Assembly: GCA_012964335.1 (NCBI GenBank)
Contig: DTUF01000024.1
Span: 1-64,000, forward strand
From: Candidatus Poseidoniales archaeon
Lineage (GTDB): Archaea > Thermoplasmatota > Poseidoniia > Poseidoniales > Thalassarchaeaceae
Direction: 5' to 3'
Length of the DNA stretch: 64,000 bases
Shown: in pieces, positions 38,803-43,774 of the stretch
Numbering within the stretch: the first letter of the stretch is position 1
Layout: every line of letters starts with the position of its first letter
Position numbers and translations under genes: made by a program
Notes under the pieces: model-generated
What the model saw: the letters and a program-made list of their open reading frames with translations, nothing else
Told to the model about the DNA's origin: nothing
The model's database searches: none

Positions 38803-40776
38803 TTAGATATCTCCTAAGTTGAATGATTGACTCATTTCTGAAGGGTCCGCTGTTCTCAGAATTACCACTGGGTGTAGTTGGGTCACAGGCACTAACAAAT
38901 CGTCTGCAGAAACTGATTCCTCATCAATATCCCAATCCGTTTCTGGAATGTATTCTTCTATCCCAACGGCCTCGTAAGGGCGCTCTGGCTTAGTCCTCGT
39001 TTTCAGAGATTCTCCTGCCCCTAACTTTGAAATGCGTGACAGTTTACGTTCAATTTCAAGCATTTTATCAGCCATTTCAACCAATTCCTTTGGCTCAGCA
39101 TTCTCAATTTTACTGGAAATGTCCTCCATCTGACCATGTAAGGAAAATAGCTCATCTTGATGCCGACGGAGTCTAGACTCTAACCGGTCAAGGAATCCTT
39201 CACTCGTCAATTCAATATTGGGAACTTCACCTCTCGGTTCTTCTAATGTTGTGGGAAGACCTGACAACTCAATCCTGTCACGAGCATCCTCTAGTGCACC
39301 TTTCTCACGGCCGAGGTGCCTTTCAATCAGTGAATCAACGGCATCTCTACTAGTATCTGGCATTAAATCTGGAGGCTGATAATCATCAACAATTGATTCT
39401 AATTCACTGATAATATCAACATTTGGTTGGCGCTCCTTTGGTAGTACATGGTCTAGCACCTCACGCACAATTCGCTGCCCAGTTCTCTCAGTATCCCAAG
39501 CAATTAGGCCATCATCACCCCGCATTACCAATTCTTCTCCTGAAAGTATTGTCTCAATATCGCCGACACCAAACGGCTCGGCCCCAGCCTCGATTGCTAG
39601 TGCTACCGCCTCAAAACCAGACTCCGCTACACTCCAATCTCTATCCGCTGCAACGGCAATTGCTCGCAATTGTTCGTCCGATAGAGGAAGACCCCTCACT
39701 AATGCTCGGTTTCTCATAAATAGAACCAATGTCATGACATCTGGATTATCAAGATTGACTTCAACGGATGACCTAAGTGCACCACCTAGTATCCCAGAAT
39801 AATTGCAGTTTTCACTAGAAGTGATTACCACTTGAACCCCAAAATTTAGACAACTGTCAATAATAATACCTAGGTTTTCTTCGCTATCTTCTCCAACCGA
39901 TTGAATATCATCAATAAGCAGTGTACTACAGCCCTGAACTGCATCTACCCAATCGTCAGATAACTGAGATGGAAATGAACTTCCAACAATGATTCGGACT
40001 TCGTCTTCAGGTGACCTAGTATGCATCGAGGAACCAATCGCTCTCAATAGATGACTTTTCCCCACACCCTCGCCTCCAAAGATGATGAGGGGATTTGCTC
40101 GCTCAGATGGGTGAGTTATCACCTCATTACCGGCAGTACTTGCCAATCGGTTGTTAGGCCCTACCTGCCAATTACTCCATGTGAAGTTTTGGTTAGGTGT
40201 GAAGATAGGTGGCCATCCAGGACGACCTATTGCAAGTTCTTCTGCAACCATCTTCAACGGTGATTCAACTGGTGGTGGAACTGCCCCAATAAGTTCAGAA
40301 TGATGCTGGCGAGCAGACTCAGTTGGTCTCACATGCCCTCTCTGCTTGGAGAGTACATCACGCCACAATGGTGTTGAGACGTTTCTTGTTTCCATATCTT
40401 CAACATCTGAGTTGACCCAGGCGGGAAAGTTTGGTTTAGTCGCTGATGGGGCTTGGTCAGTATCAATCATTGGCGCATCTGCTTCCACACCCTGCCGCAT
40501 TCTCTGAAGCCTTTGAGACGCAATGGTACCAAAATCACCAGCTCTCTTTTTGACTGCAGTTGATGTTGAATGTAAAAATGGCCCATCAAATGGATTCTCC
40601 ACAGGAGGTAATTCTCCCCTTCGAATATATTTCCCAAGTGATGCTTGAGGTGACTCTGTCTCTGAACTAGTCAACTCTGACTTTCGCTCTGACAATAACC
40701 GCTTGCTTTTCTCCAGTTGTTGTTGAAGAAGTGTTCGCCTAGCCATGCCATCCACCATATTTCCTAAATTTGCCAT
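38803..40776 (-). CDS. DnaA-like AAA+ ATPase (domain III only) with long helical flanks
   Basis: This is a protein of 657 residues. About 192-400 strongly resembles the AAA+ core of bacterial DnaA: FTWSNWQVGPNNRLASTAGN is laid out like the FxxFVxGPSNRxAxAAA entry of DnaA, then ANPLIIFGGEGVGKSHLLRAIG (Walker A 234-241), LLIDDIQSV (Walker B 286-292), VVITSSEN (sensor 1) and a box VII Arg (LRSSVEV, Arg335). The bacterial DNA-binding domain IV helix-turn-helix is absent. In its place are about 250 residues of acidic linker and a coiled coil (about 515-595). The N-terminal 190 residues are low complexity. It is the first of two genes in a head-to-tail pair with the DUF835 protein. Archaeal initiation normally uses Orc1/Cdc6, so its role is unknown. 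Confidence 0.75.
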   Translation of the reverse strand: MANLGNMVDGMARRTLLQQQLEKSKRLLSERKSELTSSETESPQASLGKYIRRGELPPVENPFDGPFLHSTSTAVKKRAGDFGTIASQRLQRMRQGVEADAPMIDTDQAPSATKPNFPAWVNSDVEDMETRNVSTPLWRDVLSKQRGHVRPTESARQHHSELIGAVPPPVESPLKMVAEELAIGRPGWPPIFTPNQNFTWSNWQVGPNNRLASTAGNEVITHPSERANPLIIFGGEGVGKSHLLRAIGSSMHTRSPEDEVRIIVGSSFPSQLSDDWVDAVQGCSTLLIDDIQSVGEDSEENLGIIIDSCLNFGVQVVITSSENCNYSGILGGALRSSVEVNLDNPDVMTLVLFMRNRALVRGLPLSDEQLRAIAVAADRDWSVAESGFEAVALAIEAGAEPFGVGDIETILSGEELVMRGDDGLIAWDTERTGQRIVREVLDHVLPKERQPNVDIISELESIVDDYQPPDLMPDTSRDAVDSLIERHLGREKGALEDARDRIELSGLPTTLEEPRGEVPNIELTSEGFLDRLESRLRRHQDELFSLHGQMEDISSKIENAEPKELVEMADKMLEIERKLSRISKLGAGESLKTRTKPERPYEAVGIEEYIPETDWDIDEESVSADDLLVPVTQLHPVVILRTADPSEMSQSFNLGDI

Positions 40777-40800
40777 TAATTTTCAATCATACTAGGATAA

Positions 40801-43227
40801 TTAACCCTCGAAGTCATTCAACATTGATTCTATTTTTTTAATCTGTTCAAATTGAATAAGTTGAGCACGATATTTGACAGCAACCGTTGAATCAATTACT
40901 GAACGATTTTCTTGGATATTAATTCGGTTGATTAAATCATTTACCATCACTGATTTCTTCTCTAATTCAGTAAGCAGTTTCAATCCCTCCTTTGAGTTAG
41001 CCTCTATGCGGTCAACAAGTTGACGAATTGGGTGGCCTTTATCAGCCAAACTATTGATTCTCTCTAGAATCTTCAAGTCAATACCAGATCGCTTAACCAT
41101 TTGTTTTCGGTCGGCATAAAGAGCTTCTAATTCGGAGCCAACCAACATTTGGGTAAGAGTCTTCGACTTCTGAATTCGGATAGCTGATTCTCTAGCAAGT
41201 GGATTGGTTACCAAATCAGGCGTAATTGCTGTTGGGGCTTCTTCTGAAGCGCTAACCACAGCAGCACCCCATTGACGAGTATTAACACCAGAAATTGAAG
41301 AGGTTTTGGAGGATTTCACACCATGACGTAGAGACCTTGAATTGTCAACAGCTGCACTCATACCCCGGGTCTCAAGCACCTCCCAGTTTCTCTCTTCATT
41401 AGTTTCCCATTCACCAACTTCTCTAAATGCATCTTTCTTGTAATTCAGGGCAGTTACCGACCTATCTATAGCCTCGTAGCCTGAATCTACTAATTGCCCT
41501 TCAAATTGCTTACTATTTGCTGCTGCATAATGCATTGATGCCTTTTCAAATTGTAATATGTCAGGTTTTTGCGGTACACTAACTCGTCTCTTTTGTTTAC
41601 TACGATAGTTTACTGTCGGTTGGTTTGGCCGAGCATATTCAGGTTCAACCTCAGGCTCAGAGGAATCAGCATCCTCTACAACCTCAGTTTCCACAATTTC
41701 CTCAGAAGTGATATCAGAAGAATCAGGGGCATCTACATCAAGAGTTGAAGCATTTTCTTGGGGAGTGGTGGTTGACTCATCATCCATGTTAGCCGATGGG
41801 GCCGTTGCCCAACTTGGAAGGGCGAAATCTCCTTCTTCATCATCAGCAGTTACTGTGGATTCTAGAGGTTCATCATTTGAGGTAGTATCATCTGAAGATA
41901 TTGGTTCAGGTTCAACTTCTGACCTCATCTCATCAAGTAAAGAGGCCGCTGAAAATGAGGTTTCTGGTTGAGTAAACTGAGCCGATGAGGCACCGCTGTT
42001 TGATTCATCTTTTGTTGGTGAATCTTGGGTTTGCTCCACAGTTGAAAGAAGTCTGGTTGCTGCGTCCTTGAACTCACCTTCAGCCTCACTTACAATATCG
42101 ATTCTTTGCGGTTCTGGAATACTTAATGACTCAGTTTCTTGGCAGAACCGATGGCCTTCAACAACTGCTGGTCTCTGAGCCCATTCACCGATTGTACCAG
42201 CACTAATTTGGTCACATTCTCGCAACAATAGTGAACGCTCACGCTGGTCCCAAACATCAAAATCAGCGGGAATTAACACCATATTATTGGAAGTTTGAAT
42301 ACCATCAAATAAATTACGTAGCATACCTATCAAACGGCTAAAGCCGTGGATTCCACTAAGATATTCAACCCCATCTAGAATAATGACTGCCCTTGATGAA
42401 CCCCATAGAAACTGATCGCATTCTCTACGAATTTCTTCCAATCCTGGATTAACAGTTCGCACCCCTTCAACTTCTCTTTCACTAAGCCAACGACATACTG
42501 AAATTGGTAATCCGAAGTCATCAGAAATACGCTGAGGCGGGCTACGAGATATCACCATAACAGGATGGCCGATTGAAGCAAGATGTGTTGCAACTGTGAA
42601 CACAGAATCAGGTATCTGTTCATCAATTATGTAACTACAACCGGCTTCAAATTCTTCCCCGGGAATATATTCAATAATATCAGCAACATCATCTGCCTCA
42701 GAATCTTCTTCGTCATCATCTAGGGTTTTCTCAGTCATCGTCCATTCCCGATTACGTTTTGAACGCCACCAATCAGAATCTCGCTTTGTATTCGTTATCC
42801 ATCCCTCTACTTTCTTGTCAGCGTGGGTATCTGAACCAGCAAAATGCAACTTAGCCTCTGGATGCAAGTCAGCAATCAATCCAAGATCAACATCAGTATG
42901 AACTGAAATCCGTGAATCATCTGCTGCAGCGCAGTCCCTCAACTCTTCCAATGCATTATGGCCCATCAACAATTCAGTAGACTCAAACAGAGCCATTTCA
43001 GGTGCACCATCTGAAATCACAAGTTGAGCAATGCTTACTGGATTGGTTGGTTGTTGAATCCTAATATAACCACTACTACCTTCTTTATCAAAGTCAATCA
43101 AGAGCAACTCAAGCACCCCTGAACCACCTCTACGCACCTCCTTGGTGATACCCTTCGGTAGTTCAGCCACGGCAATCCTCGCCCCTCGTCTTGCTTGACC
43201 CCCTCTTGAACGTGGCCCTTCACGCAC
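40801..43227 (-). CDS. DUF835-domain protein with N-terminal beta domain and long disordered C-terminal region
   Basis: This is a protein of 808 residues. About 30-130 is a beta-rich module (GVLELLLIDFDKEGSSGYIR, ISDGAPEMALFESTELLMGH) resembling archaeal DUF2226-like modules. About 195-340 carries the DUF835 pattern, a RecA/KaiC-like fold without a P-loop: GCSYIIDEQIPDSVF, VMVISRSPPQ, ICRWLSE-type strands, RAVIILDGVEYLSGIHGFSRLIG and VLIPADFDVWDQRERSLLLREC. About 400-560 is acidic and Ser-rich; the remainder is helical. The start is GTG at 43227; GTG at 43170, seven bases after a GAGG site, is a serious alternative. It lies 24 bases upstream of the DnaA-like gene and is probably its operon partner. 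Confidence 0.65.
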   Translation of the reverse strand: MREGPRSRGGQARRGARIAVAELPKGITKEVRRGGSGVLELLLIDFDKEGSSGYIRIQQPTNPVSIAQLVISDGAPEMALFESTELLMGHNALEELRDCAAADDSRISVHTDVDLGLIADLHPEAKLHFAGSDTHADKKVEGWITNTKRDSDWWRSKRNREWTMTEKTLDDDEEDSEADDVADIIEYIPGEEFEAGCSYIIDEQIPDSVFTVATHLASIGHPVMVISRSPPQRISDDFGLPISVCRWLSEREVEGVRTVNPGLEEIRRECDQFLWGSSRAVIILDGVEYLSGIHGFSRLIGMLRNLFDGIQTSNNMVLIPADFDVWDQRERSLLLRECDQISAGTIGEWAQRPAVVEGHRFCQETESLSIPEPQRIDIVSEAEGEFKDAATRLLSTVEQTQDSPTKDESNSGASSAQFTQPETSFSAASLLDEMRSEVEPEPISSDDTTSNDEPLESTVTADDEEGDFALPSWATAPSANMDDESTTTPQENASTLDVDAPDSSDITSEEIVETEVVEDADSSEPEVEPEYARPNQPTVNYRSKQKRRVSVPQKPDILQFEKASMHYAAANSKQFEGQLVDSGYEAIDRSVTALNYKKDAFREVGEWETNEERNWEVLETRGMSAAVDNSRSLRHGVKSSKTSSISGVNTRQWGAAVVSASEEAPTAITPDLVTNPLARESAIRIQKSKTLTQMLVGSELEALYADRKQMVKRSGIDLKILERINSLADKGHPIRQLVDRIEANSKEGLKLLTELEKKSVMVNDLINRINIQENRSVIDSTVAVKYRAQLIQFEQIKKIESMLNDFEG

Positions 43228-43342: not shown

Positions 43343-43774
43343 TTATTTTTCAGATATGCCAAGAATTTGGTGCCCGCGGCCAAACCAGCCCCAACCCTCT
43401 ACCACCCAGAGATAAAGCTGATTCAAAGTTTCATCATCTACCCCTGCTTTCTTAGCAACTTGCTTGATTAATTTCATCTCTTCATCAGTGTATTTGCCAT
43501 CGCACGCAGCCATCAATATTGTGTCACGCAGGAGAAGTTTTACGCTATCTGCTGAAAGTGCTTCAAGATGATATTCAATATCTATCCATTCCCCAACGAT
43601 TTCACTAAGCCTTTCTCTAACATCTCTTTGGTAAAGTAGAGAGGCTACTCGGGACTCATAAGCGCTCATTTCCTCAGGTGAAAATTCCCCATCACAAGTT
43701 GCTGCAACTGCCAATATAGTGGCATATGAAATAGCCTCATCGCCATCCATTTCCAACAAAGAATCAGGGAGCAT
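43343..43774 (-). CDS. TerB-like protein
   Basis: This 143-residue acidic all-helical protein resembles the TerB/DjlA N-terminal fold: ATILAVAATCDGEFSPEEMSAYESR and TILMAACDGKYTDEEMKLIKQVAKKAGVDDETLNQL are the two DGxxxxEE units typical of that fold, which is thought to bind metal or membranes. The tellurite label of the family is historical and does not imply tellurite resistance. The start may be ATG 43774 or 43750. It lies upstream of the DUF835 gene on the same strand, with a gap of 115 bases, so co-regulation is possible but unproven. Confidence 0.6.
   Translation of the reverse strand: MLPDSLLEMDGDEAISYATILAVAATCDGEFSPEEMSAYESRVASLLYQRDVRERLSEIVGEWIDIEYHLEALSADSVKLLLRDTILMAACDGKYTDEEMKLIKQVAKKAGVDDETLNQLYLWVVEGWGWFGRGHQILGISEK

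Follow-up and report, generated by a model that had tools for sequence, protein, structure and literature searches.

A DnaA-type AAA+ module joined to DUF835 in Thermoplasmatota: a possible signalling ATPase and a candidate pseudo-ATPase pair in marine Poseidoniales

Introduction

DnaA is the bacterial initiator of replication and Orc1/Cdc6 proteins are the normal starters of replication in archaea. Bacterial DnaA (TIGR00362; PF00308 and PF08299) carries the AAA+ core of the initiator clade. Hda (TIGR03420), which is a stand-alone AAA+ protein, corresponds to domain III of DnaA without the DNA-binding domain, and the DnaC/DnaI/IstB loaders form a neighbouring AAA+ clade. DUF835 has been classed as an inactivated KaiC, and the partners given for archaeal DUF835/iKaiC proteins are REC and PAS domains (PMC5847659).

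The archaeal proteins described here resemble bacterial DnaA in their AAA+ core, and those members in which this core is fused to DUF835 share with it Walker A and B, sensor 1, the arginine finger and sensor II. They differ in having no domain IV, the DnaA-box-binding domain, with DUF835 present instead. The likeness to the iKaiC proteins lies in DUF835 itself, a degenerate RecA/KaiC fold, and in a seven-transmembrane (7TM) protein beside a KaiC gene at one locus, but the partner here is a DnaA-type AAA+ module rather than REC or PAS. Unlike Hda, the archaeal module comes with other domains, either in one polypeptide or as partners. Among the results listed by text searches of a mostly openly available literature, no paper describes a DnaA–DUF835 fusion, and its novelty is provisional.

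The gene pair and its domains

The window, by which we mean the whole stretch of DNA analysed, comprises 64,000 nucleotides of a Candidatus Poseidoniales archaeon (GCA_012964335.1, contig DTUF01000024.1). The two genes of interest, c1 and c0, and the gene upstream of them have the following features.

38803..40776, minus strand: c0, DnaA-like AAA+ protein of 657 residues (ORF call, Pfam, NCBIfam and phmmer; orthologues in all Poseidoniales-type loci read)
39637..40194, minus strand: DnaA domain III-like core of c0, residues ~195–380 (Pfam, NCBIfam and phmmer alignments)
40051..40077, minus strand: Walker A of c0, GGEGVGKSH, residues 234–242, intact in the window protein
39901..39921, minus strand: Walker B of c0, LLIDDIQ, residues 286–292
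39751..39783, minus strand: DnaA box VII region of c0, GALRSSVEVNL, residues 332–342, with Ser337 at the arginine-finger position
40801..43227, minus strand: c1, DUF835 partner of 808 residues, with an N-domain, DUF835 and a long low-complexity tail
42865..43149, minus strand: N-terminal alpha/beta domain of c1, about residues 27–121
42217..42594, minus strand: DUF835 domain of c1, an inactivated KaiC/RecA-like fold (Pfam and model)
43343–43774, minus strand: TerB-like protein upstream of c1 (26.8 bits)

The genes c1 and c0 are co-directional and separated by 24 bp. A preliminary description of this DNA had placed a 657-residue protein 24 bases behind a DUF835 protein, and both reading frames and the gap are borne out.

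Sequence comparison assigns the AAA+ core of c0 to the DnaA clade. Residues 195–325 match Pfam Bac_DnaA (PF00308; 66 bits, E = 6e-18), and the best PDB matches found by phmmer are the Bacillus and Thermotoga DnaA proteins. Against curated models c0 scores 76.7 bits to DnaA (TIGR00362), half as much to Hda (39.7 bits) and far less to IstB (15.9 bits) and DnaI (13.7 bits). The profile comparison with DnaA, Hda and the DnaC clade therefore upholds the family assignment first proposed, and a best match to DnaC/IstB did not occur. The preliminary description was also right that Walker A and Walker B are present and that domain IV is missing, since profile searches of c0 for PF08299 found none.

Three details of that description are not confirmed. 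The residue named as the box VII arginine, Arg335, lies two positions before the finger, which falls on Ser337 when c0 is aligned to the invariant Ser-Arg of the fused relatives, and position 335 is R or K in part of the family only. A near-complete domain III is not borne out, as the sensor II arginine is unconserved and the Walker A lysine has gone in 19 of 55 orthologues. The long coiled coil is unproven, a crude heptad test having given no significant 42-residue window.

In c1, residues 213–337 match DUF835 (PF05763) with 60 bits, above the gathering cut-off. The predicted model of this domain resembles KaiC, RecA and FlaH in structure comparison, in agreement with its classing as an inactivated KaiC. 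The N-domain of c1 gave no recognized relative and no named fold match; it also forms the N-terminus of fused proteins in other Thermoplasmatota. PADLOC models of known anti-phage defence systems gave no match to the window pair.

We refer to the family of the window genome as f1, to the other family of the order as f2 and to genera by g-numbers. The TerB-like gene occurs in some genomes of the window genus and in g2, and an unrelated protein stands there in other genera. It was rejected as a third partner, being found at three loci only (the window, L067 and L068), with an unrelated small protein elsewhere.

Fused proteins in other Thermoplasmatota

A search of the phylum with the marine profile gave matches in many other families. 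A single polypeptide matched both c0 and c1 in nine of the 20 loci fetched; it has the DnaA core ahead of DUF835 and, in most cases, begins with the c1 N-domain. Of 24 named loci, which belong to Methanomassiliicoccales, Proteinoplasmatales and other Thermoplasmata, 14 have the same fusion. A whole-length profile found this fusion in 12 genomes of eight families outside the order, Methanomassiliicoccales included. The 14 fused proteins that were aligned all carry both Pfam domains, and domain IV (PF08299) occurs in none; DUF835 occupies its place. The architecture is N-domain, zinc ribbon, AAA+ and DUF835. Walker A, Walker B and an invariant arginine finger (R469) are conserved in the alignment, and sensor II mostly so.

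Two fused proteins score 287 and 334 bits against TIGR00362, below the cut-off of 343.9 bits, as expected because domain IV is missing. A profile of the fused proteins scores 364 bits to Bacillus DnaA. Individual members score about one third of their DnaA score to Hda and ~50 bits to DnaC/DnaI/IstB-type models. The core of one Methanomassiliicoccales protein is ~52% identical to DnaA of Paenibacillus and Priestia, and the model of a fused protein superposes on domain III of B. subtilis DnaA with a TM-score of 0.93 and 1.8 Å at 42% identity. The model of the full fused protein has a pTM of 0.40, too low for a confident prediction of any domain interface.

Variants of the arrangement exist. At L102 the DnaA and DUF835 genes are separate but adjacent. 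At L101 a KaiC gene lies between them; the DnaA protein (L101:7350-8954, G219:C218) opens with a signal-peptide-like stretch and also contains an FN3-like domain and a membrane segment, and the DUF835 is joined to a 7TM domain. In lineages f11 and f28 the DnaA module has no DUF835 adjoining. Some Methanomassiliicoccales (L119:5482-6504, L122:5488-6504 and the g70 genomes) have the N-domain joined directly to DUF835, the DnaA module being cleanly missing; two of the 24 named loci are of this kind. The DnaA–DUF835 link is therefore not obligatory, and the DnaA module can enter or leave as a unit.

These observations refine two further points of the preliminary description. The pairing of the DnaA-like and DUF835 proteins, deduced there from gene order, gains adjacency and gene fusion in relatives, and fusion is the stronger support for a functional link; that the two form one complex is still our inference. 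The presence of a DnaA-like protein in an archaeal genome is real, but is less exceptional than was implied, since many families of Thermoplasmatota have DnaA modules. PF00308 also matches proteins of the control genomes Methanocaldococcus, Haloferax and Methanosarcina, at the level of a profile match only. One match (L062; G139:C23:3093-4466) is a full bacterial DnaA scoring 536 bits to TIGR00362, most likely on a contaminating contig of an assembly that is archaeal in other respects, and was excluded.

gyrB/gyrA and a ThiC-like gene are found close to the fused gene, which often adjoins that of a zinc-ribbon protein (L094, L096, L098, L104, L114, L119 and L121–L127).

Distribution and divergence in Poseidoniales

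Adjacency of the pair in relatives was checked at 20 loci of the order at which both genes were readable; at every one c1 and c0 are neighbours that run in the same direction. With frames taken from the first possible start, the two overlap at 17 of these loci, by exactly four bases at ten. The gene order c3-c7-c6-c1-c0-c5-c4-c2 is kept across the order, with metabolic genes around. Full-length c1 was found in 18 of 60 genomes of the family, 17 of which have c0; in the remaining one (G035) a contig end cuts c0.

Almost every f2 genome has c0, as do the genera g1, g2, g3 and g7 of f1; it is absent from the remaining f1 genera, whose genomes are smaller. Loss of the pair from the small Thalassarchaeaceae-type genomes accompanies a general reduction of the genome, the neighbour c6 being likewise lost or unrecognizable. 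Genera that lack the pair showed no clean empty site, because c6 is missing or elsewhere.

The marine proteins differ from bacterial DnaA in their motifs. Arginine stands at the finger position in none of 55 marine genomes, and in the same set the Walker A lysine position holds lysine in 36, arginine in 14 and cysteine in five, the losses falling in genera g12, g13 and g16 and in one g15 genome. Purifying selection on marine c0 persists despite this loss of motifs. The window protein and its counterpart in G055, of the same genus, give dS 0.63 and dN 0.075 (dN/dS about 0.1), and a pair with arginine for the Walker A lysine gives dS 0.65, dN 0.055 and dN/dS 0.085. The marine proteins form one clade (support 100/100) on a very long branch, and the best tree puts the archaeal DnaA modules on one side of a branch with support 31/76, so that they may, but need not, go back to a single transfer. 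The marine pair has the look of a fused form that was split and is decaying, although the direction of the split is one that we infer.

Functional assignment

Our preferred reading of these sequences, to which we give a little less than even weight, is that a DnaA motor was captured and rewired into archaeal KaiC-type signalling, and that marine archaea have kept it largely as a scaffold. Bacterial-type domain III, without its DNA-binding domain and joined to DUF835, would constitute a regulatory ATPase in Thermoplasmatota. The AAA+ part would cycle or oligomerize with ATP, and DUF835, replacing the DNA-binding domain, would relay its state to partner proteins, of the KaiC type or others. We favour a signalling or regulatory ATPase over an initiator because DUF835 stands in the place of domain IV and because a membrane-anchored variant lies beside a KaiC gene.

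In Poseidoniales the module would have been divided between co-directional c1 (N-domain and DUF835) and c0 (AAA+), the two products probably still forming one complex. Hydrolysis of ATP in trans has probably been lost from marine c0 because it has no arginine finger, and in several marine genera nucleotide binding has probably gone too. The outcome in the marine lineage would be a scaffold or pseudo-ATPase held by purifying selection. The broader formulation, that a bacterial initiator motor whose DNA-binding domain was exchanged for an inactive KaiC domain became a lineage-wide signalling machine and survives in abundant surface-ocean archaea as a two-protein pseudo-ATPase under selection, we advance more tentatively still.

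The preliminary description hinted at a bearing of c0 on the start of replication, and its suggested survey of orc1 was carried out on the window genome and six relatives. The window genome has two canonical Orc1/Cdc6 proteins (396 and 250 bits), and each of the six relatives has two. These genes lie about 308 and 819 kb from c0, which is near 1.521 Mb, in the single-contig genome G061. The hint is thus not supported; c0 does not replace the archaeal initiator, and we rejected it as an origin factor. A genuine DnaA, opening a second origin or that of a resident plasmid, would fit the ~52% identity of the fused domain III to Paenibacillus and Priestia DnaA and its intact Walker A and B, finger and sensor II. 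We nevertheless regard such an accessory initiator as very improbable, given that no member has domain IV, that Orc1/Cdc6 is present twice, that the marine versions are degenerate and that the site is chromosomal and syntenic among metabolic genes. By analogy with Hda, a replication role exercised through protein contacts is possible. The module, with DUF835 as a docking domain, might act on Orc1/Cdc6, MCM, the clamp or gyrase and so time or limit initiation. Hda likewise is domain III without domain IV, DnaA and Hda share this clade, and fused genes are near gyrB/gyrA at many Methanomassiliicoccales-type loci. The gyrase neighbourhood persists, however, where the DnaA module is missing (L119 and L122), and the scores to DnaA far exceed those to Hda. 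With c0 so distant from orc1 in G061, the module dispensable in many Thalassarchaeaceae-type genera, the finger absent from marine versions and one lineage membrane anchored (L101), we judge this role unlikely.

Rather less probable is a chromosome-organizing or segregation factor, in which an AAA+/RecA-like pair with helical arms would serve as a nucleoid or polar organizer. Helical and repeat regions do occur in the fused proteins, and L095 gives weak matches to SMC models and to an archaea-specific SMC-related protein (35 bits), but those matches fall in helical regions of low specificity; there is no SMC head, no DNA-binding domain was found and the window protein was negative in the crude heptad test. 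An archaellum- or adhesion-linked positioning system deserves hardly any weight. Archaellin is found in nearly all f2 genomes and in four of 11 f1 genera, in line with what has been published for Poseidoniaceae and Thalassarchaeaceae (PMC6461757), and the pair initially seems to be distributed as the archaellum is in these families (PMC6461757, PMC6336850). Co-distribution with archaellin nevertheless rules out the link: the window genus has the pair without archaellin (four genomes compared), and genera g5 and g6 have archaellin without the pair.

Should the preferred reading, KaiC-type signalling by a captured DnaA motor, be correct, a conserved archaeal family of DnaA motors with a KaiC-type domain instead of the DNA-binding part would show an initiator ATPase given a new job. 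Methanomassiliicoccales offer a concrete target, as cultured relatives exist. The natural series from intact motor to pseudo-ATPase would allow the need for ATP to be read from sequence. For annotators, a DnaA label in a Thermoplasmatota genome does not signify a bacterial-style origin.

Other DUF835 genes

Another, shorter gene for a DUF835 protein follows the c0/c1 pair in its distribution among genera, being present or absent together with it. The product, DUF835 with a helical tail, is encoded at L148 (G000:C22:13193-13564), L146, L147, L149 and L150, divergently from the neighbouring gene of an acidic membrane protein with zinc-ribbon and EF-hand-like features. Yet another DUF835 protein, ~1,400 residues long, is widespread in Methanomassiliicoccales-type genomes (G380, G390, G330, G354 and others).
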